NCBI RefSeq assembly: GCF_007997225.1
Contig: NZ_VORM01000001.1
Coordinates: forward strand, 186,001-250,000
Length of the DNA stretch: 64,000 bases
Direction of reading: 5' to 3'
DNA from: Subsaximicrobium wynnwilliamsii
Lineage (GTDB): Bacteria; Bacteroidota; Bacteroidia; Flavobacteriales; Flavobacteriaceae
Shown: in pieces, positions 39,411-55,624 of the stretch
Position numbering within the stretch: position 1 is the first letter of the stretch
Layout of the letters: every line of letters begins with the position of its first letter
Translations under genes and position numbers: made by a program
Notes under the pieces: model-generated
Databases searched by the model: none
Told to the model about the DNA's origin: nothing
Seen by the model: only the letters and a program-made list of their open reading frames with translations

Positions 39411-39806
39411 GCTGGAAAAGCGATTGACAATGCAGTCAATGAAACTAAAGAAGCTGGTAAGGCTGTAGGAGAAGCTGTTGATTCTCTTGACAAACAAGAT
39501 GACAACAAATAATCCATAAGGATTCTATTGTTAAGAAGCTCGGTACGTTGTATCGGGCTTTTTTTATATATGGGTTTTTACATATCCTCACGTTTGACCA
39601 GAGCACCCAAGACGAGTCTAAACTCCTGATTTATTTAGCTATGGAGATGACTGTTGCAGCAAAAACCTTACAAATTCACGGCAGGTTAAAATCAAAATTT
39701 ATATATTTATTCTTCCCTTAATAGTCTTTAATAGCAAATTTCATTTTAATTAAACATGAAACTATGCTTAAAAAAACGCTTTTTTTCACGAACAAATGTG
39801 CCATTA
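39411..39806 (+). repeat. 396-bp direct repeat, right copy
   Basis: Counterpart of 33177-33572. Here the cas1 end is continuous with intact cas1, while the lipoprotein 5' end is missing and replaced by island sequence. Confidence 0.95.
39533..39564 (+). terminator. Duplicated terminator before cas1
   Basis: Identical hairpin and T-run to the element at 33299-33330. Located about 200 bp upstream of cas1. Confidence 0.65.
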
Positions 39807-40648
39807 CCACCGCCCATGAGCAGCTAGTCATTATTGCAAATAACAAAGAAAGAACCATACCCATTGAAGACATTGGTTACGTTGTTATTGACCATAACGA
39901 AGCTTATATAAGCATGCCAGCCCTCAATAAATTGATCCATAACAATTGTGCCTGTATCATCTGTGACGACAAGCATTTGCCAAATGGCATGTTGCTCAAT
40001 CTCAATAGCCATCACGTGCAGCAAGAACTCTTCAAGCATCAAATAGAAGCAAGTGTGCCATTAAAAAAGCAACTTTGGCAGCAAACCATAAAAGAAAAGA
40101 TTAGGAATCAAGGTATTCTACTCGAACAGATAACCGCCAAAAACAATAAGTTTGAGTACTTGGAAAGCAAGGTTTTGAGTGGCGATACCACAAATATGGA
40201 AGCGGTTGCCGCTAATTTTTATTGGAAATCTTTTTTTGAAATCGATTTCAAAAGAGAGCGCTTTGGCAATTACCCCAATAATTTTCTCAATTACGGCTAC
40301 GCCATATTGAGAGCCGCCACCGCAAGAGCCTTATCTGGAAGCGGCTTGTTAAATACTTTGGGCATACACCATAAGAGCAAATACAATGCTTTCGCCCTAG
40401 CCGATGACATCATGGAGCCCTTTAGGCCCGCTGTAGATGAAATTGTAAACTTTATCATGCAAAATTATGATGAGCAAGAACTCACTACTGAGATAAAATC
40501 TGAATTACTCCAAGTACTTACAAGAACCGTTTATTTCAAAACCGAGAAAAGCCCACTCATGGTAGGGCTGCAAAAAACAGCAAGCTCCTTGCAACAGTGT
40601 TATACCGGCGAGCGGAAAAAAATCAAATATCCAAAATTATGGAACTAA
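39764..40648 (+). CDS. cas1: CRISPR-associated endonuclease Cas1 (type II)
   Basis: The 294-aa adaptation integrase. It has the family opening MLKKTLFFTNKCAITTAHEQLVI, the central VAANFYWKSFF block with the metal-binding glutamate (EAVAANFYW), and the downstream HHKSKYNAFALADDIMEPFRP carrying the catalytic histidine and acidic residue. Length is normal for type II-C. It overlaps cas2 by 10 bp. Its upstream region and first codons are duplicated at 33.5 kb. No csn2 or cas4 is present, as expected for subtype II-C. Confidence 0.97.
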   Translation: MLKKTLFFTNKCAITTAHEQLVIIANNKERTIPIEDIGYVVIDHNEAYISMPALNKLIHNNCACIICDDKHLPNGMLLNLNSHHVQQELFKHQIEASVPLKKQLWQQTIKEKIRNQGILLEQITAKNNKFEYLESKVLSGDTTNMEAVAANFYWKSFFEIDFKRERFGNYPNNFLNYGYAILRAATARALSGSGLLNTLGIHHKSKYNAFALADDIMEPFRPAVDEIVNFIMQNYDEQELTTEIKSELLQVLTRTVYFKTEKSPLMVGLQKTASSLQQCYTGERKKIKYPKLWN

Positions 40649-40968
40649 ACGCCTATAGAATTATGTGGTTATTTGTATTTTTTGATTTACCTACCAACAC
40701 AGCTAAAGACCGACGCAACGCTGCTGGCTTTAGAAAAAACCTCCTGAAGGACGGTTTCACCATGATGCAATACTCGGTGTACATGCGGCATTGCGCAAGC
40801 AGTGAAAGTGCCGATGTGCATGAGAAACGCATCAAACGTTTACTGCCGCCTTTGGGAAAGGTTAGCGTTCTCAGGATTACCGACAAACAATTTGGCAATA
40901 TCATGAACTTTTGGGGCAGGTCCGAAGTGCCAAACGAGCCACAACCCTCACAACTGGAACTGTTTTAA
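40639..40968 (+). CDS. cas2: CRISPR-associated protein Cas2
   Basis: The 109-aa Cas1 partner. The start at 40639 (MELNAYRIMWLFVFFDLPT) gives the classic Cas2 beta-strand with the conserved aspartate in FFDLPT. The end (WGRSEVPNEPQPSQLELF) is typical of Bacteroidota Cas2. An upstream in-frame extension into cas1 is spurious. A terminator follows 4 bp after the stop. Confidence 0.96.
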   Translation: MELNAYRIMWLFVFFDLPTNTAKDRRNAAGFRKNLLKDGFTMMQYSVYMRHCASSESADVHEKRIKRLLPPLGKVSVLRITDKQFGNIMNFWGRSEVPNEPQPSQLELF

Positions 40969-40971
40969 AAC

Positions 40972-41022
40972 AAAAAAACGCTTCAATCTTGCCTTATCAC
41001 TGCAAGAAAGAAGCGTTTTTTT
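40972..41022 (+). terminator. Terminator after cas1-cas2
   Basis: AAACGCTTC (about 40976-40984) pairs with GAAGCGTTT (41010-41018) across a 25-nt loop, followed by T7. It insulates cas2 from the array. Confidence 0.8.
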
Positions 41023-41073
41023 AAACGATATTTCACTTTAAATGCATGACTACCAGAAGGCAAGAGGCCAACT

Positions 41074-44000
41074 AATATCGTGTCTTCTAATCTTTAATCA
41101 AACCACAACAAGGCACCGACACAATTAAAAACTCACATGAATATCGTGTCTTCTAATCTTTAATCAAACCACAACGCCGGGCTTGGCCGCGATCATCCGT
41201 TGCTAATATCGTGTCTTCTAATCTTTAATCAAACCACAACGCATCAAAGTAGTGTGCTTTGTACGTATTTAATATCGTGTCTTCTAATCTTTAATCAAAC
41301 CACAACGCAATATTCAAACAATCCGATGAGATCCCTAATATCGTGTCTTCTAATCTTTAATCAAACCACAACCTGGGATTGAAAGGTTAGAACCACGGTT
41401 CTAATATCGTGTCTTCTAATCTTTAATCAAACCACAACTGGGTGCTATTAGCGCAAATGCGGTATAATAATATCGTGTCTTCTAATCTTTAATCAAACCA
41501 CAACGTTATAAGCATCAATGACCACGTAGATGAAATATCGTGTCTTCTAATCTTTAATCAAACCACAACCAGCAACATTAAATGGAGATTACGATGTGAA
41601 ATATCGTGTCTTCTAATCTTTAATCAAACCACAACTTGTCAAAGCTATAAAATGGCAGTCTCAAGAATATCGTGTCTTCTAATCTTTAATCAAACCACAA
41701 CGTATTCCCAGAGTTTGAGTATGCCGAGATAATATCGTGTCTTCTAATCTTTAATCAAACCACAACTAACGCTAATAACGTTGTGACCGGGAGCTTAATA
41801 TCGTGTCTTCTAATCTTTAATCAAACCACAACTATAGTGCTATTATTAAATTGTACCATTTAATATCGTGTCTTCTAATCTTTAATCAAACCACAACGGT
41901 ACTAATGAATATACTATTACTACTATAAATATCGTGTCTTCTAATCTTTAATCAAACCACAACTAAATACGTATCAGTCGCTATGTGGTAGTGAATATCG
42001 TGTCTTCTAATCTTTAATCAAACCACAACCTATATAATATCATCATAAATATATATTATAATATCGTGTCTTCTAATCTTTAATCAAACCACAACCTAAA
42101 AACGCCTAGTTATAAACGTCTTATGAATATCGTGTCTTCTAATCTTTAATCAAACCACAACGTATTCATCGTAATAGGTTTTTTAAAAGCAAATATCGTG
42201 TCTTCTAATCTTTAATCAAACCACAACTGAAGATCGAGCCGATGTATTTTATTGCCGAATATCGTGTCTTCTAATCTTTAATCAAACCACAACAACTCGG
42301 TCGCCTGGTGTTGCATTTAGGAAATATCGTGTCTTCTAATCTTTAATCAAACCACAACAACGCGGTCGCCTGGTGTTGCATTTAGGAAAATATCGTGTCT
42401 TCTAATCTTTAATCAAACCACAACCCCATTGCCGTAAGAATAAAACATCTTGCGAATATCGTGTCTTCTAATCTTTAATCAAACCACAACCGTAGGTAGA
42501 TATTAGTTAATTAATCCAGAAATATCGTGTCTTCTAATCTTTAATCAAACCACAACCGCATCCTCTCCAAGTTTGTGAAAAACCAGAATATCGTGTCTTC
42601 TAATCTTTAATCAAACCACAACACATTATAATGCCGTTAAAACAGCTTTAGAATATCGTGTCTTCTAATCTTTAATCAAACCACAACCACCTTCCAATCG
42701 GGATGGCGCTCCTGTAAATATCGTGTCTTCTAATCTTTAATCAAACCACAACCTGGGACTTGAAGGCTAGTATTTCGGTTCCAATATCGTGTCTTCTAAT
42801 CTTTAATCAAACCACAACCAACCATGACATTTTACGCTTCAGCGTTCAATATCGTGTCTTCTAATCTTTAATCAAACCACAACTGGGCTTTTTTAAATCA
42901 AGAAAAGGCTAATAATATCGTGTCTTCTAATCTTTAATCAAACCACAACCCCATCACTAATTGAAATTCGTAGGGGATTAATATCGTGTCTTCTAATCTT
43001 TAATCAAACCACAACGCAGAATGCTTGGATGCAACCGGCTTGAGAAATATCGTGTCTTCTAATCTTTAATCAAACCACAACGCAGAAACTGCGACCGAGT
43101 TTTTTAAGGAAATATCGTGTCTTCTAATCTTTAATCAAACCACAACCGTCAACAGCTGCCGGTGTCCTGGGTATTGAATATCGTGTCTTCTAATCTTTAA
43201 TCAAACCACAACCAACCTCGTGCTATTAATGCATTTCTAGCTAATATCGTGTCTTCTAATCTTTAATCAAACCACAACCTGGTGCGATTGTCTTTAGATG
43301 CATTGCCAAATATCGTGTCTTCTAATCTTTAATCAAACCACAACCACAAGAGTGGCCATGCCCAACCAAATACTAATATCGTGTCTTCTAATCTTTAATC
43401 AAACCACAACTAGGTACGTATCAGTCGCTATATGGTAGTGAATATCGTGTCTTCTAATCTTTAATCAAACCACAACACTGTGTCGTGTGAATTGCTACAG
43501 TTACAAAATATCGTGTCTTCTAATCTTTAATCAAACCACAACTACATAACCGAAGACGATTTAAAGACCGAGAATATCGTGTCTTCTAATCTTTAATCAA
43601 ACCACAACCAATTTGCGTGCAGGGTCTTTGGAATAAAAAATATCGTGTCTTCTAATCTTTAATCAAACCACAACTATTTCCTTAAACACTTTGCCTTCCG
43701 TAATAATATCGTGTCTTCTAATCTTTAATCAAACCACAACACGCACCAGCGCCACCAGAAAACCAATTTTAATATCGTGTCTTCTAATCTTTAATCAAAC
43801 CACAACGCTTCGTATGGCTCAGGATCCTTGATGGGCAATATCGTGTCTTCTAATCTTTAATCAAACCACAACCTAATAAATCCCCTGTCGCAGTATCTTC
43901 TTAATATCGTGTCTTCTAATCTTTAATCAAACCACAACATCATCCCTGAACTTATTCGGATTTATTCTAATATCGTGTCTTCTAATCTTTAATCAAACCA

Positions 44001-45781
44001 CAACAAATAATAGCCGATACCACGATGGTCGCACAATATCGTGTCTTCTAATCTTTAATCAAACCACAACATCTCTTAAAAGGTTTAATCAGATGCCAAA
44101 AATATCGTGTCTTCTAATCTTTAATCAAACCACAACACAAAACAGCTCATTGAAATAAAGGGTTTTAATATCGTGTCTTCTAATCTTTAATCAAACCACA
44201 ACTAAGAACAACAAATTTAAATTAAAACAATAAATATCGTGTCTTCTAATCTTTAATCAAACCACAACAAAAACGATCCTCAATCAGAAATAACCCAAAA
44301 TATCGTGTCTTCTAATCTTTAATCAAACCACAACCCTAAAATGTTTCTTTGTGGTTTCTAATGGAATATCGTGTCTTCTAATCTTTAATCAAACCACAAC
44401 GCCAGTACTAAAATTAGCGGTTCAGATATTAATATCGTGTCTTCTAATCTTTAATCAAACCACAACCGCTAGGTAAGATTCAATAATTTCTTCTATAATA
44501 TCGTGTCTTCTAATCTTTAATCAAACCACAACCACCCTTACAATATTCCCATTTAGTGGTTGAATATCGTGTCTTCTAATCTTTAATCAAACCACAACGG
44601 AATGCGTCCAAGCGTTTCAAGGCACAAAAATATCGTGTCTTCTAATCTTTAATCAAACCACAACCTTACCATGTTAGTGATCGCTTACACGAAAATATCG
44701 TGTCTTCTAATCTTTAATCAAACCACAACCTAAAAACTCCTCGAGATAAATTTTTTTTGAATATCGTGTCTTCTAATCTTTAATCAAACCACAACTATAG
44801 TACCGCAATCAAAACAGCTACAATGAATATCGTGTCTTCTAATCTTTAATCAAACCACAACAAAAACGATCCTCAATCAGAAATAACCCAAAATATCGTG
44901 TCTTCTAATCTTTAATCAAACCACAACATACATCACACCATCTATCTCATATACTCAATATCGTGTCTTCTAATCTTTAATCAAACCACAACAACGCGAT
45001 CGCCTGGTGTTGCATTTAGGAAAATATCGTGTCTTCTAATCTTTAATCAAACCACAACCCCTATTTTGCCGCACTCATAGATTGCGATAATATCGTGTCT
45101 TCTAATCTTTAATCAAACCACAACACCTCTATGCCGATTGGACTAAAATAAAGAATATCGTGTCTTCTAATCTTTAATCAAACCACAACTAGTCTAAAGT
45201 AGGCTGTTCGTTTAACACGAATATCGTGTCTTCTAATCTTTAATCAAACCACAACCCATCAGCAGAGGTCATTACTCTATTTGTGAATATCGTGTCTTCT
45301 AATCTTTAATCAAACCACAACGTGGTGGACTTTATTCAATCGACAATGCTGAATATCGTGTCTTCTAATCTTTAATCAAACCACAACTGTTATACCGCCA
45401 TTAACAGATCTTAGTTTAATATCGTGTCTTCTAATCTTTAATCAAACCACAACACAGGAGATGTGGACATTGAGCGTGCAGAAATATCGTGTCTTCTAAT
45501 CTTTAATCAAACCACAACTTGCCAGAGAATTATTTAAACATGGGCATCAATATCGTGTCTTCTAATCTTTAATCAAACCACAACCATTGATTGCATTTGG
45601 GCGCACAAAAGATTAATATCGTGTCTTCTAATCTTTAATCAAACCACAACCACAATTTGTGCTTGATTGTTCAGACGCTGAATATCGTGTCTTCTAATCT
45701 TTAATCAAACCACAACAACAGGCAAGATGGTTTGAAATACCAAATAATATCGTGTCTTCTAATCTTTAATCAAACCACAAC
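41074..45781 (-). CRISPR. Type II-C CRISPR array, 72 repeats and 71 spacers
   Basis: The repeat is 36 bp; on the plus strand it begins AATATCGTGTCTTC and ends CAAACCACAAC. I counted 71 spacers, 57 of 30 nt and 14 of 29 nt, which reproduces the observed span exactly. The first and last repeats are both perfect, and I noticed no variant repeat inside. The tracrRNA anti-repeat (plus strand) resembles the plus-strand repeat, so crRNAs must come from the minus strand, beginning GTTGTGG; the leader should then be to the right (45782 onward). Spacers at 44269-44298 and 44862-44891 are identical, and several others form near-identical families. The array lies between cas2 and the 3' end of cas9. Confidence 0.99.
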
Positions 45782-46150
45782 GGAAAATCATTTCGAAAAT
45801 TTGAAAAGATCATTTCTCCGTTGTGGTTTGGTTGCTTAATAAACCCATTTATGTCAAAGAACTTTCCTCATATGGAAATCTTGTTTGAATTCATCTAACA
45901 TTACTTCCCGGGATTGTTTTTTAGCAAAACCGTTTTGCTCGCTATTTTCATTCGCACAAAATCATAATACACTATTTGCTTTCGTGCTTATTTAATGAGA
46001 TAATTGATGGCCTCACTTTTGCATTTGAACTCGTCATCTGCTATTTTATTTTTTACCATTCGTCATTTTGTTTGGTTAAGGAAAAGCTTTGCCGCGTCAT
46101 GACTCAAAAAATTTATTTGATGTAAAATCACACTTTTCATTTTAGTCTTA
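45782..46150 (-). promoter_or_regulatory. Presumed CRISPR leader region
   Basis: AT-rich DNA between the array and the cas9 stop. It lies on the side from which the array should be transcribed. It contains GTTGTGGTTTG (45820-45830), the first 11 nt of the crRNA-sense repeat but in inverted orientation relative to the array, 38 bp from the last repeat. I find no clear TAnnTTTG box on the minus strand, so the promoter is not located. Confidence 0.5.
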
Positions 46151-49100
46151 TTAAATTTTTACTATTTTTCCTGAAACAGAAACTTTGACTTTGATTGGAT
46201 TAAACGTCAGCCATCCGGTCTTACCTTTACCAAAACTTTGAATTCTTCTAAAAACGTTGGAATTTGTATCTTTAATTTGTGTCGCATCTCTATTTAATCT
46301 AAATTCATAAAAATTAGATGATAAGGTTTGAACTTTAAATAAATAGTCATTAAGAAAAACATAATCAAGGTTTTCCCAATCAATCTCATCCTCGTTTAAT
46401 CCCAAAAGAAACATATCGTTTATTTGCATTGCTGTAATTATTTCTATTCCATCTGGGGGCAATTGATATACAGGAAATCCCTTGCTTTTACGCTCAACAA
46501 CTGTCCAAAATGTTACGACGTCTTCTTTTAAATTTCCTTCGTCATCTTTATAAATCAACACGTGATGGTTATTTCTAGGATTGACCCATTGATTCAGATC
46601 ATCTTTCAACTGTTCTGCACCACCAATATTTTCCCGCATTCTCACTTTTAGTACGGGGACCGGATTTCCGTTTTTATTAGGTAAAAAGATTTGCGGCTGC
46701 TTGTTTCCATTTTCATCGACGGTAAAAAATGTTTCAAGAGGAATCTTTCCTTTTACAAAACCTCCCAATACATTAATTCGTTTAAAAATCAACTGTTTAA
46801 TAGTAATATCTACAACCTTTTCCAATTGCTTTTCGGTTGTTAAACTATCAATTGGTTTCCTCACGTGAAAAGCCTCGTCGCTATTTGGAGCTTGTCTTTT
46901 GGCAAACACCGTTTCCTTGTGCAGCTGTCCACGAGCCGCTACTCCCTTGTTGGTGTACCTTTCGCCATTTTTCTCTGTTATATGCTTTCTTACGGTAAGA
47001 ATAGATTTCGATTTCTTGTGAGAAACCAATATCCCGTCAACTGCTTTTTCAGCATCTTCCCTAAAGCTTTCCCACGGTTTAGGGAAATTATTGAGATCGT
47101 AAGACCTGTCATATCTATTCCACTTACTCAATTCTTGTAGATGGCCTCTTGTTGAACAAGCCATTACCAAAGCGTCAATGGCGTGATGACGATGATCGTC
47201 TCTGGTTTTAGTATCATCCTCTAAATTTAAAACCGAATTCAATCCCCAGTGATGCCTTAAATTTGAGGTCATTTGACCTGGTGCCACCATAACCTTGCTG
47301 CAAATTTTAGATAAATAATTATTGGCTTCTTTGCTTATATAGCGCGTATCATTAAGTTGTCTTGAGATGAAATCTGAATCGTGTTTTTGCTTTACAAATT
47401 GTTTGAATTTAAAATAAGCGCTTGGATAATGCGCCTTGTTTTTGAAACAACTTAATGCCTGTAGCTTAATTGCTTCCCATTTTTGTTCGCCCAATTTACC
47501 ATAAAACTCAAAAGGGGTTAAATCACCCTTTGCCCCATTCTCATCTACAAAACAAAGCGTTTTATTCATAAAGCTGTCGTTTAAAGAACGACTCCAAGGA
47601 TAAATATGTTCAATTTGAACTTCCCCACTAAACAATTGATTTACCTCAATGTTTCGCCCAGTGTATGGACAAGTTCTATTGCACTCTTCCCAAAGTTTAT
47701 ATTTTAAGATATTGACATGGGTTGGTCGTTGACCAATATAATCTAGCTCTGCCTTTACCCGATCATTTTCACGTTCCAAACGTTGCTGCTCCTTTCTAAT
47801 GTCATTTCTTTTGGACTTTGATATTTTTAGGTCTCGCGCCAGTTCTACTTTAATTTCGTCTGGTTTTCCATAATCATCAATTATTTCATTGACTAATTTC
47901 CTAATTTCAAAAAGCGCAGTGATAACCACGGGGTTTTTAATACTTTGTATTTCTTTATCCGCTTCTGGGTTAACTGGCAACCTATCCAACAACTTAGTGA
48001 TTTCAATATTGCTGCTGTGATGATAAAGCTTCGCTAATTCTTTGTCTGATAACTGGCTTTCTTTTTTTAGCATTTCCTTGAGATGTGCTATGTAACCGCC
48101 TTCGAGATTGGATCGCACAATTTCAGGAACATTATTCAGCATGAAATCCTCTTGTGGTTCCCATTTGATTCCCAGAGCGTTTTTCACACCTCCTAGTGCC
48201 ACTGCTATATCATAAGTAAAACCTAATTTTAAAAATGGCAGCATATTACTAATGGCCTTTCTGCTTAGGTTGGCATAACCATCCTTCAAATTAAATTTTG
48301 AAATTTTCTCTGCCTTCTCCTCGTTAAACTCCCATCTTTCAAGAGCATATGCTTTAAGCTTATCCCGATCGTCAAAACTGTAGAGCACGTGCCAAATATC
48401 TTCTTGCTCCTTATCTGAAAAATCAAACCATGCCTTACCGAAGAATTTCTTATTTGATAGATTGCTTATGGTATGACTTCCATAAATAGCATCGTCATCC
48501 TTGTAATTAAACTGGTAATGCCCATCTAATTTGCCAATGGCTTTTCTAATTTCCTTAAACTTTACTTTCTCTTTTGAAAACAAGAGATCTAAAATCTTTT
48601 CTCTTTCTTCTGAATTTATTTTGACTTTCTCCCCAGCCAAATCACATTTGAGGGTATTGAGCCATTCGTAAATACGCCTCTGCTCATTAGGGATTGCGCT
48701 TATCTGGCATTTGGTCTTTTTTGGTTCAAGCGAGCAATTGCCAACCAGATGTTTTTGGGATCGCAAAGGACGTTGATGAAATAAAACACCATCTTCTGGG
48801 AAACCATCTTTTTTGCGGCCGCCATATATGGTTTTCAGCTCATCTGTAAGCTCACTGTGATACTGCTTTTGATGCTCCCATATGGCTTCAAACTCATCAA
48901 TGTACATTTGTCGCGTGGTGTATCTATTTCTAATGCGCTCCAATTCATCAGTGAAAGGTGCATTTTCTTTGGGATATATCTGGTTCAAATAAGAGCCAAG
49001 TGTTTGATGATCTTCTATACTATTGGCAGTTTCTGCAATACCTATTTTTCCTGCCTTGGCATCGCCCTTAAAAATGACACTTTTCTCATTAGTCTCTGCA

Positions 49101-49555
49101 CCAGCGCTCCTACTGTTACTTTGAAAACCGCGTCTTTGTATCATATGATAGAATATACGCCCAAGTTCATCCAAACTCACTTCTTCATTAATCGCTTTAG
49201 CACGCAATTGGTAAGGATTCAGTCTTAACCATTCTTGCAAATTTTTATTACTGAAGATCTCCTTTTGATTCCAAACTTTAACCATGTTATAATCAATAGG
49301 ACACATATCGTGTTTTGCCAGCTCCCTTAATAAATACCGTTTGCGTAAACGACGTCTAAAAAACTGTCTTCTAACGCCCCTATCTTCCGTCCTGCTAGCA
49401 TTTTTTGAGGTTTCTCGCCCCTCTCCTTCCCCAAGATTTACCACGCCTTCTGGGAATATCCTGCTCCCAATACCTAATATTTCTTTTTTTTCATCATCTA
49501 TCAACGCCCACCCTATCGAGTTAGTGCCCAAATCCAATCCTAAAATTCTTGCCAT
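46151..49555 (-). CDS. cas9: CRISPR-associated endonuclease Cas9 (type II-C)
   Basis: A 1134-aa RNA-guided nuclease, compact as in subtype II-C. All catalytic parts are intact: RuvC-I D8 (ILGLDLGTNSIGW), an arginine-rich bridge helix (NASRTEDRGVRRQFFRRRLR), RuvC-II E571 (IKVELARDL), HNH H650 (QIEHIYPWSRS) with asparagines N664 and N673, and RuvC-III H791/D794 (HRHHAIDALVMA). A CNRTCPYTG pair precedes the HNH and may bind zinc. The gene converges on cas1-cas2 with the array between them, and its 5' end faces the tracrRNA 110 bp away, which is divergently transcribed. Confidence 0.98.
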   Translation of the reverse strand: MARILGLDLGTNSIGWALIDDEKKEILGIGSRIFPEGVVNLGEGEGRETSKNASRTEDRGVRRQFFRRRLRKRYLLRELAKHDMCPIDYNMVKVWNQKEIFSNKNLQEWLRLNPYQLRAKAINEEVSLDELGRIFYHMIQRRGFQSNSRSAGAETNEKSVIFKGDAKAGKIGIAETANSIEDHQTLGSYLNQIYPKENAPFTDELERIRNRYTTRQMYIDEFEAIWEHQKQYHSELTDELKTIYGGRKKDGFPEDGVLFHQRPLRSQKHLVGNCSLEPKKTKCQISAIPNEQRRIYEWLNTLKCDLAGEKVKINSEEREKILDLLFSKEKVKFKEIRKAIGKLDGHYQFNYKDDDAIYGSHTISNLSNKKFFGKAWFDFSDKEQEDIWHVLYSFDDRDKLKAYALERWEFNEEKAEKISKFNLKDGYANLSRKAISNMLPFLKLGFTYDIAVALGGVKNALGIKWEPQEDFMLNNVPEIVRSNLEGGYIAHLKEMLKKESQLSDKELAKLYHHSSNIEITKLLDRLPVNPEADKEIQSIKNPVVITALFEIRKLVNEIIDDYGKPDEIKVELARDLKISKSKRNDIRKEQQRLERENDRVKAELDYIGQRPTHVNILKYKLWEECNRTCPYTGRNIEVNQLFSGEVQIEHIYPWSRSLNDSFMNKTLCFVDENGAKGDLTPFEFYGKLGEQKWEAIKLQALSCFKNKAHYPSAYFKFKQFVKQKHDSDFISRQLNDTRYISKEANNYLSKICSKVMVAPGQMTSNLRHHWGLNSVLNLEDDTKTRDDHRHHAIDALVMACSTRGHLQELSKWNRYDRSYDLNNFPKPWESFREDAEKAVDGILVSHKKSKSILTVRKHITEKNGERYTNKGVAARGQLHKETVFAKRQAPNSDEAFHVRKPIDSLTTEKQLEKVVDITIKQLIFKRINVLGGFVKGKIPLETFFTVDENGNKQPQIFLPNKNGNPVPVLKVRMRENIGGAEQLKDDLNQWVNPRNNHHVLIYKDDEGNLKEDVVTFWTVVERKSKGFPVYQLPPDGIEIITAMQINDMFLLGLNEDEIDWENLDYVFLNDYLFKVQTLSSNFYEFRLNRDATQIKDTNSNVFRRIQSFGKGKTGWLTFNPIKVKVSVSGKIVKI

Positions 49556-49627
49556 GCTTTTCTTATTGATTTTAATGAAGGCTAAACTTAACGAAAAACT
49601 TTAAGACAAGTTACGTGGGATACCTCA

Positions 49628-49657
49628 TTTGTATATTAAAAAATTTTCTTACATTTG
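49628..49657 (+). promoter_or_regulatory. tracrRNA promoter
   Basis: TTTG (49628-49631), an 18-bp spacer and TACATTTG (49650-49657) match the Bacteroidota consensus. Transcription would start near 49661-49664, just before the anti-repeat. Confidence 0.8.
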
Positions 49658-49661
49658 AACC

Positions 49662-49751
49662 AGATTAAAACTTCTAATCTTTAATCTTATCACAATAAGG
49701 CTATATGCCGTAGATGAAAATCTTTAGTCCTGCTTCGGTGGGACTTTTTTT
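49662..49751 (+). ncRNA. tracrRNA
   Basis: The anti-repeat CTTCTAATCTTTAATC (49671-49686) is perfectly complementary to 16 nt of the crRNA repeat. An unpaired TTAT (49687-49690) forms the bulge, and CACAAT (49691-49696) pairs with the repeat's first six bases. Then follow a GGC/GCC hairpin (around 49699-49709), a linker, and a terminator hairpin AGTCC...GGACT with a T-run ending at 49751. Length is about 90 nt. It is needed for crRNA maturation and Cas9 loading. Confidence 0.93.
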
Positions 49752-49938
49752 ATTGTCTTTCTCTTATCGTTGCGCTACAGATTTCGCAAGTTTTCCATTT
49801 TGGCTTGGTAATGTAATGATTAGGCTCAATGCAATATATTTCAGTTTCAAAATTAACACCACCTGTATAACTTTGATACCAATCAAAAGATCGAATAGAA
49901 TTTGAGAAGTTATCTTCTTCTTTTTGGACAATTTTCAT
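49750..49938 (-). CDS. Small hypothetical protein between the tracrRNA and the sgRNA-like RNA
   Basis: A 62-codon frame with an ATG start (MKIVQKEEDNFSNSIRSFDW ... YITKPKWKTCEICSATIRERQ). A CEIC pair near the C-terminus could coordinate metal. A perfect TATATTTG box on the minus strand (49958-49965) lies 20 bp upstream of the start, which supports expression. Its 3' end abuts the tracrRNA terminator. I recognise no family. Candidates include a small Cas-associated regulator, an anti-CRISPR-like protein or a remnant; the sequence does not decide. Confidence 0.55.
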   Translation of the reverse strand: MKIVQKEEDNFSNSIRSFDWYQSYTGGVNFETEIYCIEPNHYITKPKWKTCEICSATIRERQ

Positions 49939-49957
49939 GACAGATTTCTTTAGAGCA

Positions 49958-49965
49958 CAAATATA
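49958..49965 (-). promoter_or_regulatory. -7 box of the 62-codon ORF
   Basis: TATATTTG on the minus strand, identical to the box at 50001-50008 on the plus strand. The two form a divergent pair with the 11-nt seed-match site between them. A -33 TTTG is not evident. Confidence 0.5.
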
Positions 49966-49976
49966 ATTAAATTTTA

Positions 49977-49987
49977 TGTAGTGAGTA
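49977..49987 (+). promoter_or_regulatory. 11-nt site matching the guide end of the sgRNA-like RNA
   Basis: TGTAGTGAGTA here is identical to 50040-50050, the 11 nt directly 5' of the repeat-like part of the sgRNA-like RNA. The site lies between divergent TATATTTG boxes, at the place where the -33 element of the plus-strand promoter is expected. The 3' flank is GATTATATT. Confidence 0.7.
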
Positions 49988-50000
49988 GATTATATTTTTA

Positions 50001-50008
50001 TATATTTG
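50001..50008 (+). promoter_or_regulatory. -7 box of the sgRNA-like RNA
   Basis: TATATTTG matches TAnnTTTG exactly; transcription would begin about 50012-50015. No clear -33 TTTG is present at the expected position, which instead overlaps the 11-nt self-match. Confidence 0.55.
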
Positions 50009-50013
50009 CTGAA

Positions 50014-50135
50014 CTCAATTCATCGTATCACTTATACATTGTAGTGAGTAGTTGTGTTTAGATAAAAATCTTATCACAATAAGGCTATATGCCGTAGATG
50101 AAAATCTTTAGTCCTGCTTCGGTGGGGCTTTTTTT
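50014..50135 (+). ncRNA. Natural single-guide RNA candidate (tracr-L-like)
   Basis: Bases 50068-50135 match the tracrRNA (49684-49751) at 67 of 68 positions, including hairpin and terminator. Upstream, the long anti-repeat is replaced by a compact fused duplex. GTTGTG (50051-50056) pairs with CACAAT (50075-50080); TTTA (50057-50060) opposes TTAT (50071-50074) as the bulge; GAT (50061-50063) pairs with ATC (50068-50070) around an AAAA tetraloop (50064-50067). This has the same plan as an engineered sgRNA: guide, lower stem, bulge, short upper stem, tetraloop, tracr tail. About 37 nt of guide sequence would precede it; its last 11 nt recur at 49977-49987. Confidence 0.8.
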
Positions 50136-50339
50136 GTTTAAAATATTGAAGTTTTGATTTTATGAAAATCAAAAAAGAAAATAAGGTTGAGGGTTGACGA
50201 TTAGCGATTGACGATTGACGCTTGAAATTTAAAAAAAAAGTATAGAATGCAATCGTGAAGTAATGAAATTATAGATTTTTCAATGGAATGTAGCGATTTG
50301 CCTCTTGAGAAAAGCCAATGCAAGAAAATTAGTTAGTCT

Positions 50340-50424
50340 CTTGAATGCAAGCATTCTGGAACTTTTTAAAATCAAAAAAGCCGAAACTTTCGTTTCGACT
50401 TTTCATCTGTACTGAAGACGGGAC
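50340..50424 (-). repeat. 85-bp repeat containing a tRNA-Leu 3' end and terminator
   Basis: It is identical to 50508-50592 except for one base. It includes the last ~15 nt of tRNA-Leu (at 50410-50424 on the plus strand) and its terminator, but no tRNA body. This is the usual footprint of recombination at a tRNA 3' end or of a partial tandem duplication. Confidence 0.85.
50374..50403 (-). terminator. Duplicated tRNA-Leu terminator
   Basis: Stem GCCGAAAC / GTTTCGAC with flanking A and T tracts, identical to the hairpin at 50542-50571. Confidence 0.75.
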
Positions 50425-50507
50425 GTGGCTCCGCCGAGTCCTATTTCAACATCTTGAGAAAAGCCGATCCATAAAAATGGATCGCTTTGTTGTTTTCAAA
50501 AAGTTTC

Positions 50508-50592
50508 CTTGAATGCAAGCATTCGGGAACTTTTTAAAATCAAAAAAGCCGAAACTTTCGTTTCGACTTTTCATCTGTACTGAAGACGGGAC
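50508..50592 (-). repeat. 85-bp repeat, right copy (overlaps the real tRNA-Leu 3' end)
   Basis: Partner of 50340-50424 at an offset of 168 bp; it spans the terminator and the last bases of the functional tRNA-Leu. Confidence 0.85.
50542..50571 (-). terminator. Terminator of tRNA-Leu
   Basis: Eight-bp stem with a TTTC loop directly beyond the tRNA 3' end; on the minus strand a T-run follows. Confidence 0.8.
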
Positions 50593-50662
50593 TTGAACCC
50601 GTACGTCCTAAACGGACATTGGATTTTAAGTCCAACGTGTCTACCAATTCCACCACTTCAGC
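50578..50662 (-). tRNA. tRNA-Leu (anticodon TAA)
   Basis: An 85-nt class II tRNA. The acceptor stem is GCTGAAG/CTTCAGT, the anticodon loop reads CTTAAAA with TAA, a long variable arm (TGTCCGTTTAGGACGT) is present, and the T loop reads GGGTTCAAGTCCC. The discriminator base is A. CCA is not encoded. Confidence 0.95.
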
Positions 50663-50733
50663 AAATTGAAACCGCGTTTCAATTTGGTTGAACATAAAAG
50701 TGTACGTTCTTTGGTATTTTCAATAAAAAAAGA

Positions 50734-50857
50734 GCGAAAGACGCCCCGATAGCTATCGGGATTGAACCCCATGCCTACCGGCAGGCAGGCGCGACATTGG
50801 TCGCTGTGTTCTCGCTAAAAAATAATGTTCTCTTGTACAAGAAAATATTCAATATGA
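50734..50857 (-). repeat. Degenerate tRNA-Gly-derived unit 1 with inserted palindromes
   Basis: It begins, in plus orientation, with the tRNA-Gly 3' end GCGAAAGACG, which is then interrupted by CCCGATAGCTATCGGG. ATTGAACCCC (T-arm-like) follows, then a second palindrome TGCCTACCGGCAGGCA and CGCGACATTGGTCGC. The tail is shared with unit 2 and with the DNA next to the real tRNA-Gly. Period 124 bp. Confidence 0.8.
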
Positions 50858-50980
50858 GCGAAAGACGCCCCGATAGCTATCGGGATTGAACCCCTGCCTA
50901 TCGGCAGGCAGGCGCGACATTAGTCGCTATGTTCTCGCTAAAAAATAATGCTCTCTTGTACAAGAAAATATTCAATATGA
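50858..50980 (-). repeat. Degenerate tRNA-Gly-derived unit 2 with inserted palindromes
   Basis: Same organisation as unit 1 with a handful of substitutions (TGCCTATCGGCAGGCA for the second palindrome). It abuts the functional tRNA-Gly. Confidence 0.8.
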
Positions 50981-51051
50981 GCGAAAGACGGGATTTGAAC
51001 CCGCGACCCCCACCTTGGCAAGGTGATGCTCTACCCCTGAGCTACTTTCGC
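50980..51051 (-). tRNA. tRNA-Gly (anticodon GCC)
   Basis: A 72-nt cloverleaf with acceptor stem GCGAAAG/CTTTCGC, D arm AGCTCAGGGGTAGAGC, anticodon loop TTGCCAA and T arm GCGGGTTCAAATCCCGT. The discriminator is T, as usual for bacterial tRNA-Gly. Confidence 0.95.
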
Positions 51052-51397
51052 GTTGGCAATTTTACTAGACTTTCGCCTGTAATTGCGGTGGCAAATTTAA
51101 GACTTTTATCAGAAATGCAAAGCCTTTTTATTAAAATTTCTGCTTTTTTTTGGAAGCCGCTCCAGAAGAAAGAATCCAGATCAAAATCTTGCTCAGTAAT
51201 CTATTGAGAACCCTGTCTTTAAAATCCTAACGTCGCACTCATCCTTAACATTCGGTAAAAGTCTAAACCTAACGTGACGCTACTATGCCCAATTTAGAAC
51301 AACACAATGGCGTTTCCTGTTTAATCCCTATCGCGTTTTGGTTTATATATTTTGCAACTCAGACTTTTAGAGTCTCAACCATTAACCATGAGCCTTT
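51052..51397. other. Intergenic region downstream of mutS, no gene seen
   Basis: No frame with recognisable features and no strong hairpin were noticed. Confidence 0.55.
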
Positions 51398-54010
51398 TTA
51401 CGCTTGCTTCTTCTTAACCAACATGCGTTTGATTTCATTTAATTTCATGAGCGCCTCAACAGGGGTCAAGGTATTGATATCTATATTGATGATTTCTTCC
51501 TTGATCTGTTCTAATAAAGGGTCGTCCAAATTGAAAAAACTCAACTGCATGTCATTGCTCAAGGTTTTGACTTTATTGGTCAATTCCTCGCTGCTATGGG
51601 ATTTTTCGAGCTGCTTTAAAATCTTATTCGCCCTATGTATGACTTGCTGCGGCATACCGGCCAGTTTGGCTACATGAATCCCGAAACTGTGCTCACTGCC
51701 ACCTGCTACCAGCTTTCTTAGAAATAACACATTGTCTTTCAGTTCTTTTACCGAAACGTTGAAATTCTTGATGCGGTCAAAAGTTTCAGTCATTTCATTG
51801 AGCTCGTGGTAATGTGTGGCAAACAAGGTTTTTGCGCGACTCGGGTGTTCGTGCAAATATTCACTAATGGCCCAAGCGATGGAAATCCCATCGTAAGTAC
51901 TCGTGCCCCGACCTATCTCATCCAATAGCACCAAGCTTCGGTCTGAGATATTGTTCAATATGGAAGCGGTCTCATTCATCTCTACCATAAAGGTAGATTC
52001 GCCCATTGAGATGTTGTCACTGGCACCCACCCGTGTGAAAATCTTATCGGTTAAGCCAATGGTGGCAGCTTCCGCAGGGACAAAACTACCCATTTGCGCC
52101 AATAATACAATAAGTGCCGTTTGTCTCAAAATGGCCGATTTACCAGACATATTAGGCCCCGTGATCATGATGATTTGCTGTTTCTCGCGATCCAAATACA
52201 CATCGTTGGCAATGTAAGGTTCGCCGTGTGGCAATTGCTTTTCTATCACAGGATGCCTTCCGTTTTTGATATCCAACGCGTAGGTTTCGGTAAGTTTGGG
52301 CCTGCTGTAATTATTTTCTGTTGCCAATTGCGCAAAGCCACAAAGCGCATCCAATTTTGCGATAAGGGTTGAGGTTTGCTGAACTGGCTTGATAAACGCT
52401 ACCATGTCATTGATCAATTCAGCAAACAACTGCTGCTCAATCAACAAAATGCGTTCTTCAGCGCCCAGGATCTTGGTTTCGTACTCCTTGAGCTCTTCAG
52501 TAATATAGCGCTCTGCACTCACTAAGGTCTGTTTTCTAATCCAATCTGCCGGCACTTTATCCTTGTGGGTGTGCCGCACTTCAATGTAATACCCAAAAAC
52601 GTTGTTGGAAGCAATTTTCAGCGAAGTTATGCCGGTACGCTCGGTCTCGCGCGCCAGCATTTTGTCGAGATACGATTTCCCGGAGGCAGATAGGCCTCGC
52701 AGTTCTTTTAATTCCGAAGAAAAATCGGAAGCAATCGTGTTTCCCTTTAAAATATTGACCGGTGCCTCTTCATTGAGGGTCGCCTTGATGCGCTGCCTTA
52801 GACCTTCACAGGCATCCATAGTTTCGCCAATGGCATTCAAAGCTGAATTTTTTGAAGCTGTAGCCAAACTCTTTATAGGCACAATGGCTTCGAGCGCATT
52901 TTTGAGCTGAACCACCTCGCGCGGACAGATTTTACCCGTAGCCACTTTGGAAATAAGACGTTCAATATCGCCAATTTGCTTCAACTGAAGCTGAAACTTG
53001 GACAACAAAATGGTTTCAGACTTTAAAAAACTAACCACATCATGCCGGTCTTTGATCTGTTCCAAGTTAACCAAAGGCAAGGCCAGCCAACGTTTGAGGA
53101 GCCTTCCACCCATGGGCGAAATGGTTTTATCAATCACATCTACCAGCGTGACCGCATTTTGGTTGTTGGAATGGTAAAGCTCTAAGTTTTTTATGGTAAA
53201 CCGGTCCATCCAAACATGCTCCCCCTTGGTCAAGCGCTGTATGGAAGTGATGTGAGCCAATTTATGATGTTGGGTTTCACTGAGGTAATGCAAAATGGCA
53301 CCAGCAGCGCCAATGCCCTCAAAAAGATCATCAATTCCAAAACCCTTTAAGGATTTGGTATTGAAATGCTTTAGTAAGATCTCATTGGCATAATCTTCCT
53401 GAAACACCCAATCTTCCAAAAAGAAGGCATGAAAGTCGTTGCCAAACTCGGCTTTGTATTTGTTTTTATTTGGTTTGGCCACCAAAACCTCACTGGGCCT
53501 AAAATTTTGAAGCAGCTTATCCACATATTCGGCATTGCCCTGGGAAATTAAAAACTCCCCGGTGGACACGTCCAAAAAAGACACCCCAACCTGATTGACA
53601 CCAAAGTATACCGAAGCCAAAAAATTATTGGTCTTGGAATGTAAAATATCATCATTGAGCGCCACGCCAGGCGTGACCAACTCAGTGACGCCACGCTTCA
53701 CAATGGTTTTGGTTTGTTTGGGATCTTCAAGCTGATCACAAATGGCCACCCTGCAACCCGCCTTGACCAGCTTTGGCAGGTAATTATTCAAAGAGTGGTG
53801 TGGAAAGCCCGCCAATTCGGTTTCCGTTTCACTGCCAGCGCCTCTTTTGGTTAGGATGATATCCAAGATCTTAGACGCTTTTACGGCATCGGCACCAAAA
53901 GTTTCGTAAAAATCGCCCACACGAAACAATAACAAGGCATCTGGATACTTGACCTTGATGGCGTTGTACTGTTTCATTAAAGGCGTCTCTTTTTTTGCTT
54001 TTTTGGCCAA
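51398..54010 (-). CDS. mutS: DNA mismatch repair protein MutS
   Basis: An 870-aa mismatch-recognition ATPase. The N-terminal mismatch-binding motif is DALLLFRVGDFYETFGADA (F-x-E inside), followed by connector, lever and clamp. The C-terminal ATPase has Walker A MITGPNMSGKSAILRQTA, Walker B SLVLLDEIGRGTSTYDG and the FATHYHEL motif. The length is normal for MutS1. It stands alone on its strand. Confidence 0.97.
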   Translation of the reverse strand: MAKKAKKETPLMKQYNAIKVKYPDALLLFRVGDFYETFGADAVKASKILDIILTKRGAGSETETELAGFPHHSLNNYLPKLVKAGCRVAICDQLEDPKQTKTIVKRGVTELVTPGVALNDDILHSKTNNFLASVYFGVNQVGVSFLDVSTGEFLISQGNAEYVDKLLQNFRPSEVLVAKPNKNKYKAEFGNDFHAFFLEDWVFQEDYANEILLKHFNTKSLKGFGIDDLFEGIGAAGAILHYLSETQHHKLAHITSIQRLTKGEHVWMDRFTIKNLELYHSNNQNAVTLVDVIDKTISPMGGRLLKRWLALPLVNLEQIKDRHDVVSFLKSETILLSKFQLQLKQIGDIERLISKVATGKICPREVVQLKNALEAIVPIKSLATASKNSALNAIGETMDACEGLRQRIKATLNEEAPVNILKGNTIASDFSSELKELRGLSASGKSYLDKMLARETERTGITSLKIASNNVFGYYIEVRHTHKDKVPADWIRKQTLVSAERYITEELKEYETKILGAEERILLIEQQLFAELINDMVAFIKPVQQTSTLIAKLDALCGFAQLATENNYSRPKLTETYALDIKNGRHPVIEKQLPHGEPYIANDVYLDREKQQIIMITGPNMSGKSAILRQTALIVLLAQMGSFVPAEAATIGLTDKIFTRVGASDNISMGESTFMVEMNETASILNNISDRSLVLLDEIGRGTSTYDGISIAWAISEYLHEHPSRAKTLFATHYHELNEMTETFDRIKNFNVSVKELKDNVLFLRKLVAGGSEHSFGIHVAKLAGMPQQVIHRANKILKQLEKSHSSEELTNKVKTLSNDMQLSFFNLDDPLLEQIKEEIINIDINTLTPVEALMKLNEIKRMLVKKKQA

Positions 54011-54299: not shown

Positions 54300-54833
54300 A
54301 TGCGTAAACTAAAAAACGAAGAGCTCGACCGACTAGAGGTTGCAGAATTTAAAACTGCTGAAAAGACGCCTATCATTATTGTTTTGGACAATATTAGAAG
54401 CCTCAACAACATTGGTTCCGTTTTTAGGACCAGCGATGCTTTTTTGATTGAAAAAATCTATCTCTGCGGGATCACCGCCACACCGCCGCACAACGACATT
54501 AGGAAAACGGCGCTCGGCAGTACCGAAACCGTGGCTTGGGAATATGCTGAACACACCCTGGAGGTCATCAAAAACCTTAAAAAAGACAAGGTGCACATCT
54601 GCGCTATCGAGCAAGCCGAACACGCCACGATGCTCAACGATTTCAAACCTCAACAACAAACAAGGTACGCCTTGGTGTTTGGAAATGAAGTAAAAGGCGT
54701 GGCGCAAGATGTGGTAGATGCCAGCGATACCGTTTTGGAAATCCCTCAGTTTGGGACCAAACACTCGCTCAATATCTCGGTAAGTTGTGGGGTTGTGGTT
54801 TGGGATGTGTTTTCTAAATTACAGCTGCTGTGA
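54300..54833 (+). CDS. SpoU/TrmH-family RNA 2'-O-methyltransferase
   Basis: A 177-aa SPOUT (knotted) methyltransferase. Motif 1 is LDNIRSLNNIGSVFRTSDA, motif 2 is ALVFGNEVKGV, and motif 3 is LEIPQFGTKHSLNISVSCGVV. It lacks an N-terminal substrate-binding extension, so whether it acts on tRNA or rRNA cannot be said. It diverges from mutS. Confidence 0.92.
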   Translation: MRKLKNEELDRLEVAEFKTAEKTPIIIVLDNIRSLNNIGSVFRTSDAFLIEKIYLCGITATPPHNDIRKTALGSTETVAWEYAEHTLEVIKNLKKDKVHICAIEQAEHATMLNDFKPQQQTRYALVFGNEVKGVAQDVVDASDTVLEIPQFGTKHSLNISVSCGVVVWDVFSKLQLL

Positions 54834-55624
54834 GGTATTCCTAGAGACCGGAGACGGAATAATGAATACTGAATATGGAACGCTGAATGTTGAAGTTGGC
54901 TTTACGATTGACGATTGCTGATTGCTGATTGCTGATTGCTGATTTTTGATTTTTGAACTCCATTTCGTTTTCAAATTCAAATTCAAGTTCAAGTTCAAGT
55001 TCGACTTCAACTGAAGACTGAAGACCGAGAACCGAGAACTGAATCTCGAAGTTGGATTCACGATTAACGATTAACGATTAACGATTGCTGATTGCTGATT
55101 GCTGATTTTTGAAGTTCATCTCGTATTCAAATTCAAGTTCAAGTTCAAGTTCGACTTCAACTGAAGACTGAAGACCGAGAACTGAGAACTGAATCTCGAA
55201 GTTGGCTTTAGGATTAACGATTAACGATTGCTGATTGCTGATTGCTGATTTTTGAAGTTCATCTCGTATTCAAATTCAAGTTCAAGTTCAAGTTCAAGTT
55301 TGACTTCAACTGAAGACTGAAGACCGAGAACTGAGAACTGAATCTCGAAGTTGGCTTTAGGATTAACGATTGCTGATTGCTGATTTTTGAAGCTCATCTC
55401 GTTTTCAAGTTCAAGTTCAAGTTCAACTTCAACTGAAGACCGAGAACTGAGAACTGAGAACTGAGAACTGAATCTCGAAGTTGGCTTTACGATTAACGAT
55501 TGCTGATTACTGATTGCTGATTTTTGAAGCTCATCCCGTTTTCAAATTCAAATTCAAGTTCAAGTTCAATTTCAATTTCAAGTTCAAGTTCAAGTTCGTT
55601 TTCAAGTTCAAGTTCAAGTTCAGC
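54834..55624. repeat. Minisatellite-like tandem repeat region
   Basis: Five imperfect units share GAAGTTGG (at 54892, 55048, 55198, 55347 and 55477; spacings 156, 150, 149 and 130 bp). Each contains GATTGCTGATTGCTGATT runs, TTCAAGTTCAAGTTCAAG runs and GAAGACCGAGAACTGAGAAC. No coding potential is visible; reading frames here follow the short repeats. Confidence 0.88.

Follow-up and report, generated by a model that had tools for sequence, protein, structure and literature searches.

What use could a clustered regularly interspaced short palindromic repeats (CRISPR) locus of type II-C have for a second copy of its trans-activating CRISPR RNA (tracrRNA), one in which the anti-repeat has given way to a self-paired stem? 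The question is posed by contig NZ_VORM01000001.1 of Subsaximicrobium wynnwilliamsii (assembly GCF_007997225.1), of which positions 186,001 to 250,000, a stretch of 64,000 nt called the window below, were analysed. The second copy appears to be a natural single-guide RNA (sgRNA) gene, and the answer proposed here is that Cas9 may act as a switch for a neighbouring small gene rather than as scissors, led by a one-piece guide to a promoter region that the two genes share. The RNA and its canonical counterpart are laid out as follows.

50014..50135, plus strand: candidate natural sgRNA gene with a putative start, from sequence, predicted fold and a local-stem scan
50040..50050, plus strand: guide seed TGTAGTGAGTA, directly abutting the stem
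50051..50080, plus strand: fused repeat:anti-repeat (GTTGTG at 50051-50056, AAAA-looped upper stem at 50060-50071, CACAAT at 50075-50080)
50083..50093, plus strand: predicted nexus hairpin GGC..GCC
50110..50135, plus strand: predicted sgRNA terminator hairpin and T-run
49650..49657, plus strand: TAnnTTTG box of the canonical tracrRNA (TACATTTG)
49663..49751, plus strand: canonical tracrRNA with a putative start; anti-repeat:repeat co-folding -31.3 kcal/mol

The initial annotation of this DNA placed a second tracrRNA-like unit 0.4 kb past the canonical one, and alignment bears this out: 50067-50138 is 97% identical over 72 nt to 49683-49754, 384 bp away. Body and terminator agree at 67 of 68 positions, as had been stated, the single difference over 50068-50135 being an A to G change at 50127, by which one A-U pair in the terminator hairpin becomes G-U. 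A search of the whole 4.9 Mb genome finds exactly two copies of the tail. The 16-nt anti-repeat is indeed missing from the second copy, and GTTGTG pairs with CACAAT instead. The description of the upper stem needs partial correction; the AAAA loop stands, but for the claimed 3 bp and 4-nt bulge strand RNAfold gives a 4-bp AGAU:AUCU stem and a 3x3 internal loop. For the scaffold 50051-50135 the predicted folding energy is -23.9 kcal/mol (z -3.59), a value equalled by 0 of 200 shuffles. On sequence and predicted fold, a single RNA combines guide, repeat, anti-repeat and tracr body, which supports the assignment of 50014-50135 as a dedicated, stand-alone natural sgRNA gene of type II-C; we infer that its product loads Cas9 without a CRISPR RNA (crRNA).

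The seed of an sgRNA consists of the bases directly 5' of the stem. Here these recur a short distance upstream, between two divergent promoter-like boxes.

49977..49987, plus strand (the same strand as the RNA): putative sgRNA target, the same 11 nt as the guide seed
49988..49997, plus strand: side of the target that would hold the protospacer adjacent motif (PAM), GATTATATTT
50001..50008, plus strand: putative TAnnTTTG box of the sgRNA gene (TATATTTG), 13 bp from the target
49958..49965, minus strand: putative TAnnTTTG box of the small gene (TATATTTG), 11 bp from the target
49750..49938, minus strand: small gene, 62 amino acids (aa), with Cys36, His41, Cys51 and Cys54 kept in its homologue

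The 11-nt copy is the longest flush guide match on either strand of the window, the runners-up having 9 nt and then 6. The 12-mer TGTAGTGAGTAG, the seed with the first G of the stem, has exactly two sites in the 4.9 Mb genome, 49977-49988 and 50040-50051 (reversed-pattern control, 0 forward and 1 reverse). A second-order model of the region puts the probability that TGTAGTGAGTA recurs by chance at about 5e-5 within 150 bp and at 2.5e-4 within 1 kb; for a random 11-mer from the same model, the figure within 1 kb is 5e-3. Recurrence within 150 nt upstream was seen for 32 of 8,265 sampled 11-mers of the window and, with known repeats excluded, for 140 of 57,084, a tandem repeat near 25.3 kb holding most of the 80 positions listed among those 140. 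Guide position 12 is T where the target has A. The earlier reading of the unit as an sgRNA was sound as to the scaffold. It overlooked two features that hint at the purpose of the RNA, namely its target and the small gene in divergent orientation.

Regulation of cas9 itself has a precedent, and the RNA might be a brake on cas9 expression that acts through a site not seen in the window, in the way that tracr-L, the long tracrRNA of Streptococcus pyogenes, represses the cas promoter Pcas (PMC11417352). The start region of cas9 holds no flush seed match of at least 7 nt, and we rate such a brake as very improbable. As no target turned up in the cas9 promoter, the small gene and the RNA itself are the probable outputs.

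The whole arrangement recurs. G1062, a genome from a second genus within the family, has cas9, canonical tracrRNA, small gene and second tail arranged and oriented as they are in the window, and its Cas9 is 65% identical. The initial annotation had held that recurrence with compensatory changes would support a natural sgRNA over a random truncation, and such changes are found: the stem of G1062 is GTTACA:TGTAAT against GTTGTG:CACAAT in the window, with three adjacent pairs altered on both strands. This is strong comparative support. The 3' strand in G1062 no longer fits the start of the crRNA repeat, so the unit should pair with itself and not with crRNAs. Its scaffold folds with z -2.57 (matched by 3 of 200 shuffles); the fused stem taken alone is weak (z -1.19, matched by 21 of 200). 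The seed of G1062, TGTTGTAAGTA, likewise recurs as the same 11 nt in its intergenic region, the corresponding 12-mer having two sites in the genome (control, 1 forward and 0 reverse). Compared with the window, two positions are altered in the guide and the identical two, with identical substitutions, in the target, so that seed and target have changed together, and the T against A at guide position 12 is common to both genomes. What can be read directly in the DNA is the scaffold, the seed and its target, the linkage and spacing of the parts, and the matched change.

Each target is flanked by divergent TAnnTTTG boxes, one for the sgRNA and one for the small gene, at the same spacings of 13 and 11 bp in both genomes; in a shuffle model the chance of boxes in both directions is 0.4% for the window and 1.8% for G1062. 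We take TAnnTTTG to be the -7 element of the Bacteroidota. Of 44 distinct tails, 33 have it within the 60 nt that precede CACAAT, most often at -40 to -44, which supports the use of such boxes by the tracrRNAs of these loci. The small protein of the window matches that of G1062 at 25 of 64 positions (39%, E 1e-18). Changes between the two genes fall 21, 22 and 34 on the three codon positions, a third-position excess with P 0.007, and 14 of the 26 identical residues use different codons. In both genomes the stop codon of the small gene reaches the T-run in the terminator of the canonical tracrRNA; in the window the two overlap.

The explanation that we consider likely is that the stand-alone sgRNA steers Cas9 by an 11-nt seed and represses the divergent promoters. 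The RNA would be transcribed from TATATTTG at 50001, would load Cas9 unaided by crRNA and would take it to 49977-49987, with a suitable PAM alongside. Position 12 of the guide is mismatched in G1062 as well as in the window, so that pairing would be limited to 11 bp, probably too short for cutting, and Cas9 would stay bound with the DNA uncut. Bound Cas9 would then block two promoters, that of the small Cys/His-motif gene and that of the sgRNA. The small gene would be derepressed once Cas9 was lost, inhibited or occupied by crRNAs, and the module would in this way report or guard the availability of Cas9. Transcription, loading, non-cutting binding and repression of both promoters are here inferred from the sequence. 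A narrower form of the same explanation would have the sgRNA cap its own level by feedback, with the small gene a bystander. In the window and G1062 alike, 13 bp separate the target from the sgRNA box; the small gene is also linked in both, with conserved residues and a box 11 bp from the target, and the bystander version seems unlikely to us.

A reading without Cas9 starts from the repeated 12-mer. The two 12-bp copies could form a direct-repeat operator recognised by some protein, which may be the small Cys/His protein itself, the fused-stem RNA being incidental. The match is 12 nt long in both genomes, one base beyond the edge of the guide, the small protein retains a possible metal site, and a protein and its operator could coevolve. 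Such an operator leaves unexplained why a scaffold with three compensatory pairs has been retained and why, in each genome, the scaffold is where the second copy stops, and we think it improbable, somewhat more so than self-feedback.

The PAM side of the target can be compared with two other sequences. In G1062 it is GAAAACATTT. It is CAATACATTC for a protospacer in Flavobacterium phage FL-1 that agrees at 28 of 30 nt with a spacer from G557, another genome with a Cas9 of the short group. Positions 2, 5, 7, 8 and 9 are common to GATTATATTT, GAAAACATTT and CAATACATTC, and position 6 is a pyrimidine. FL-1 was the one usable match from five arrays of related short Cas9s, a joined spacer query giving none; the spacers of the window had no credible match in phages or plasmids, and three spacer cores had none in viral contigs. 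The repeat of F. columnare (PMC5395568) is identical to that of the window at 35 of 36 positions, and its PAM is given as NNNNNTAAA (PMC8092290). Cas9s that share this repeat and tracrRNA form one group of about 1130 aa, with the window and G1062, and another of about 1290-1555 aa; two size classes on one repeat and tracrRNA (L175-L192) suggest exchange of cas9 within the locus.

Several observations weigh against the proposed switch. Agreement with the common PAM columns as good as that of the target is found in 2.3% of the 10-mers of the window and 4.6% of intergenic ones, the comparison is based on a single phage protospacer, and in a weaker, AT-rich match of 25 of 27 nt between a spacer of L179 and L018 the flank differs and the last three bases of the spacer, those near the PAM, are unmatched; for these reasons the evidence that the flank is a suitable PAM is no more than suggestive. 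The F. columnare PAM fits the flank only partly, and the Cas9 of that species may be of either size group. The minimum free energy fold of the full 122-nt RNA pairs guide bases 50019-50024 with the body and disrupts the hairpin after the nexus, and a predicted 5-bp guide hairpin overlaps part of the seed; a guide hairpin was inhibitory in a Campylobacter jejuni ecrRNA-sgRNA (PMC12080349). It may be speculated that trimming of the 5' end would relieve the mispairing of guide and body. G1062 has one further TAnnTTTG box in each direction, so that the choice of boxes there is post hoc. The codon score of the small gene lies below that of 57 of 58 real gene windows; a real protein is supported despite this, because of the third-position excess and the differing codons at identical residues. 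Finally, the module has been found twice only.

That rarity emerged from a search for copies of the tail in overlapping sets of genomes, which gave matches in 13 of 195 relatives (the window's own genome counted), 21 of 23 genomes with cas9 loci, 34 of 395 genomes of the order and 114 of 398 genomes of one large genus of the family, G1062 included. Among 139 distinct tail units, a count that leaves out several weak terminator-only matches from the 398-genome set, 105 have an anti-repeat, two have too little upstream sequence and 32 remain; on reading, only those of the window and G1062 have fused stems, the others being different repeat families, broken copies or chance matches. An independent screen for units whose CACAAT strand pairs locally over 6 bp picked out 3 of 137, the same two and L045, which keeps its anti-repeat. 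Two candidates were set aside: G068 (L045/L060), where GTTGTG stands 5' of an anti-repeat, and G288 (L061), where the tracr body is missing. The module is patchy, since the loci of closer Cas9s such as L003 (79%) showed neither second tail nor small protein while G1062 has both.

In Polaribacter marinus, G987, G927 and G1019 the second tails look broken or decayed, or seem to lack a fused stem in some other way, and so give a picture of loss; L073 (G497:C22:392634-392681, P. marinus) and L157 5830 (G987) can serve as negative comparators. This decay, and the rarity of the module, would suit a dead tracrRNA duplicate with a chance hairpin. The body in the window is almost unchanged, and the second genus has both a compensatory stem and matched changes of seed and target, so that of all the alternatives this is the one to which we give least credence. 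Two further tracr-like units, L159 3047 and L171 1979, have the nexus hairpin replaced by CCGCCGCGGCGG or CCGCCACGGCGG, the former standing in tandem after a first tracr unit.

No origin from phages or plasmids came to light. The tail was found in none of the viral contigs searched (exact 20-mer) and in no plasmids, and searches with the small protein showed no relatives in phages, viral contigs or plasmids (the last with the G1062 protein as query only). The pattern GTTGTGN{8,36}CACAATAAGGC occurs in 26 viral contigs, none of which, on reading, has a tracr body. Family searches with the small protein gave no convincing match: none in NCBIfam, none in PADLOC for the window protein, a best Pfam E of 0.27 and borderline PHROG values of 0.01 and 0.08. 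An intact copy outside the window and G1062 was found in none of the sets searched (146 relatives, 398 and 43 genomes). L196 gives a weak partial match of 27 positions (E 0.005), and the weak matches in L057, L173, L194 and L195 contain stops, read as lying within other genes and were rejected. A structure model of the protein alone (predicted local distance difference test, pLDDT, 53.5) was not used. The protein may be a toxin, a Cas9 inhibitor or a regulator.

The remainder of the locus is conventional.

39764..40648, plus strand: cas1 of type II (TIGR03639, E 3.2e-88)
40639..40968, plus strand: cas2 (TIGR01573, E 8.9e-19)
41074..45781, minus strand: CRISPR array of 72 repeats and 71 spacers, minus-strand repeat GTTGTGGTTTGATTAAAGATTAGAAGACACGATATT
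46151..49555, minus strand: cas9, 1134 aa (TIGR01865, E 3.8e-189), with RuvC and HNH by Pfam RuvC_III and HNH_4

With cas1, cas2, array and cas9 present and no further cas gene noted, the locus is read as type II-C; on the strand opposite to cas9, and upstream of that gene, stands the canonical tracrRNA. An Rfam scan of 40900-51400 brought only two tRNAs to the gathering score. CAACCAAACCACAAC, 5' of the outermost repeat (45781-45850), is complementary to the start of that repeat and could mask the extra repeat in the manner of leader-repeat hairpins elsewhere; Rfam microRNA matches there are below threshold. A stretch resembling TTACGGTTTTCCTCATT lies between cas9 and the canonical tracrRNA (49605-49630), as in many flavobacterial loci (e.g. 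L158, minus strand, 5650-5630). A tRNA gene pair at 50340-50990 is flanked by partial direct duplications of gene ends, perhaps traces of past insertion, and an intergenic array near mutS (54833-55581) has five copies of a TTCAAG-rich repeat of about 150 nt.

How does the module compare with known systems? The plan is that of an engineered sgRNA (spacer, truncated repeat, tetraloop, truncated anti-repeat and tracr body), in a natural RNA with its own promoter-like box and target. In guide length the RNA resembles tracr-L of type II-A, also a natural one-molecule Cas9 guide with an 11-nt match, proposed binding without cutting and a transcriptional output (PMC8616872, PMC11417352). The tracr-L match stands beside a PAM (PMC8616872); another review puts its length at 9 bp (PMC8730458). 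In the window an 11-nt match is present, beside a putative PAM suggested by one phage match. A long isoform from the tracrRNA locus, tracr-L targets Pcas; in the window, in type II-C, a duplicate gene that stands apart, has a promoter-like box to itself and encodes a compact fused stem would target the promoter region of a divergent small gene. The small CRISPR/Cas-associated RNAs (scaRNAs) of Francisella novicida (II-B) and Neisseria meningitidis (II-C) are Cas9-associated and have short complementarity to host targets, as the RNA of the window would (PMC8730458, PMC13431127). The former requires a separate tracrRNA, whereas the RNA of the window has its own tracr body; the latter is reported as posttranscriptional, and a 2026 paper suggests that it may work like an sgRNA (PMC13431127). 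The earlier claim that no such RNA has been described in type II-C should be softened accordingly, the meningococcal scaRNA being the nearest prior claim; no similar sgRNA gene of type II-C came up in the open literature searched, which did not extend to the first report of tracr-L or to the surveys of CRISPR-derived regulatory RNAs (2023) and of tracrRNAs (2019). CreR of types I and V-A also puts a guide RNA of a Cas effector to regulatory use; it targets the cas operon promoter (PMC12737573), for which no match was found in the window.

In layout the module follows CreTA and CrePA, in which a type I Cascade with a guide from outside the array silences a linked gene that loss of the effector releases (PMC12737573, PMC9458426). 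In the window and G1062, too, a non-array guide partly matches the promoter of a gene of the same module, promoters being placed by their boxes, and the effector would be the repressor. The window differs in having Cas9 and an sgRNA in a type II locus in place of Cascade and a crRNA-like RNA, and its small gene may or may not be toxic. A type II counterpart, a guard module in which the sgRNA silences a harmful or dormancy-inducing Cys/His protein until Cas9 loss or an anti-CRISPR releases it, is a tentative extension by analogy, one that may well prove wrong. A 2025 review regards the existence of such mechanisms in other CRISPR types as still open (PMC12737573). If the proposed switch is real, stand-alone natural sgRNA genes enter type II-C, with a target whose changes match those of the guide in two genera; this small Cas9 group gains a compact natural scaffold and a second, altered stem; and effector-repressed gene pairs are extended to Cas9.
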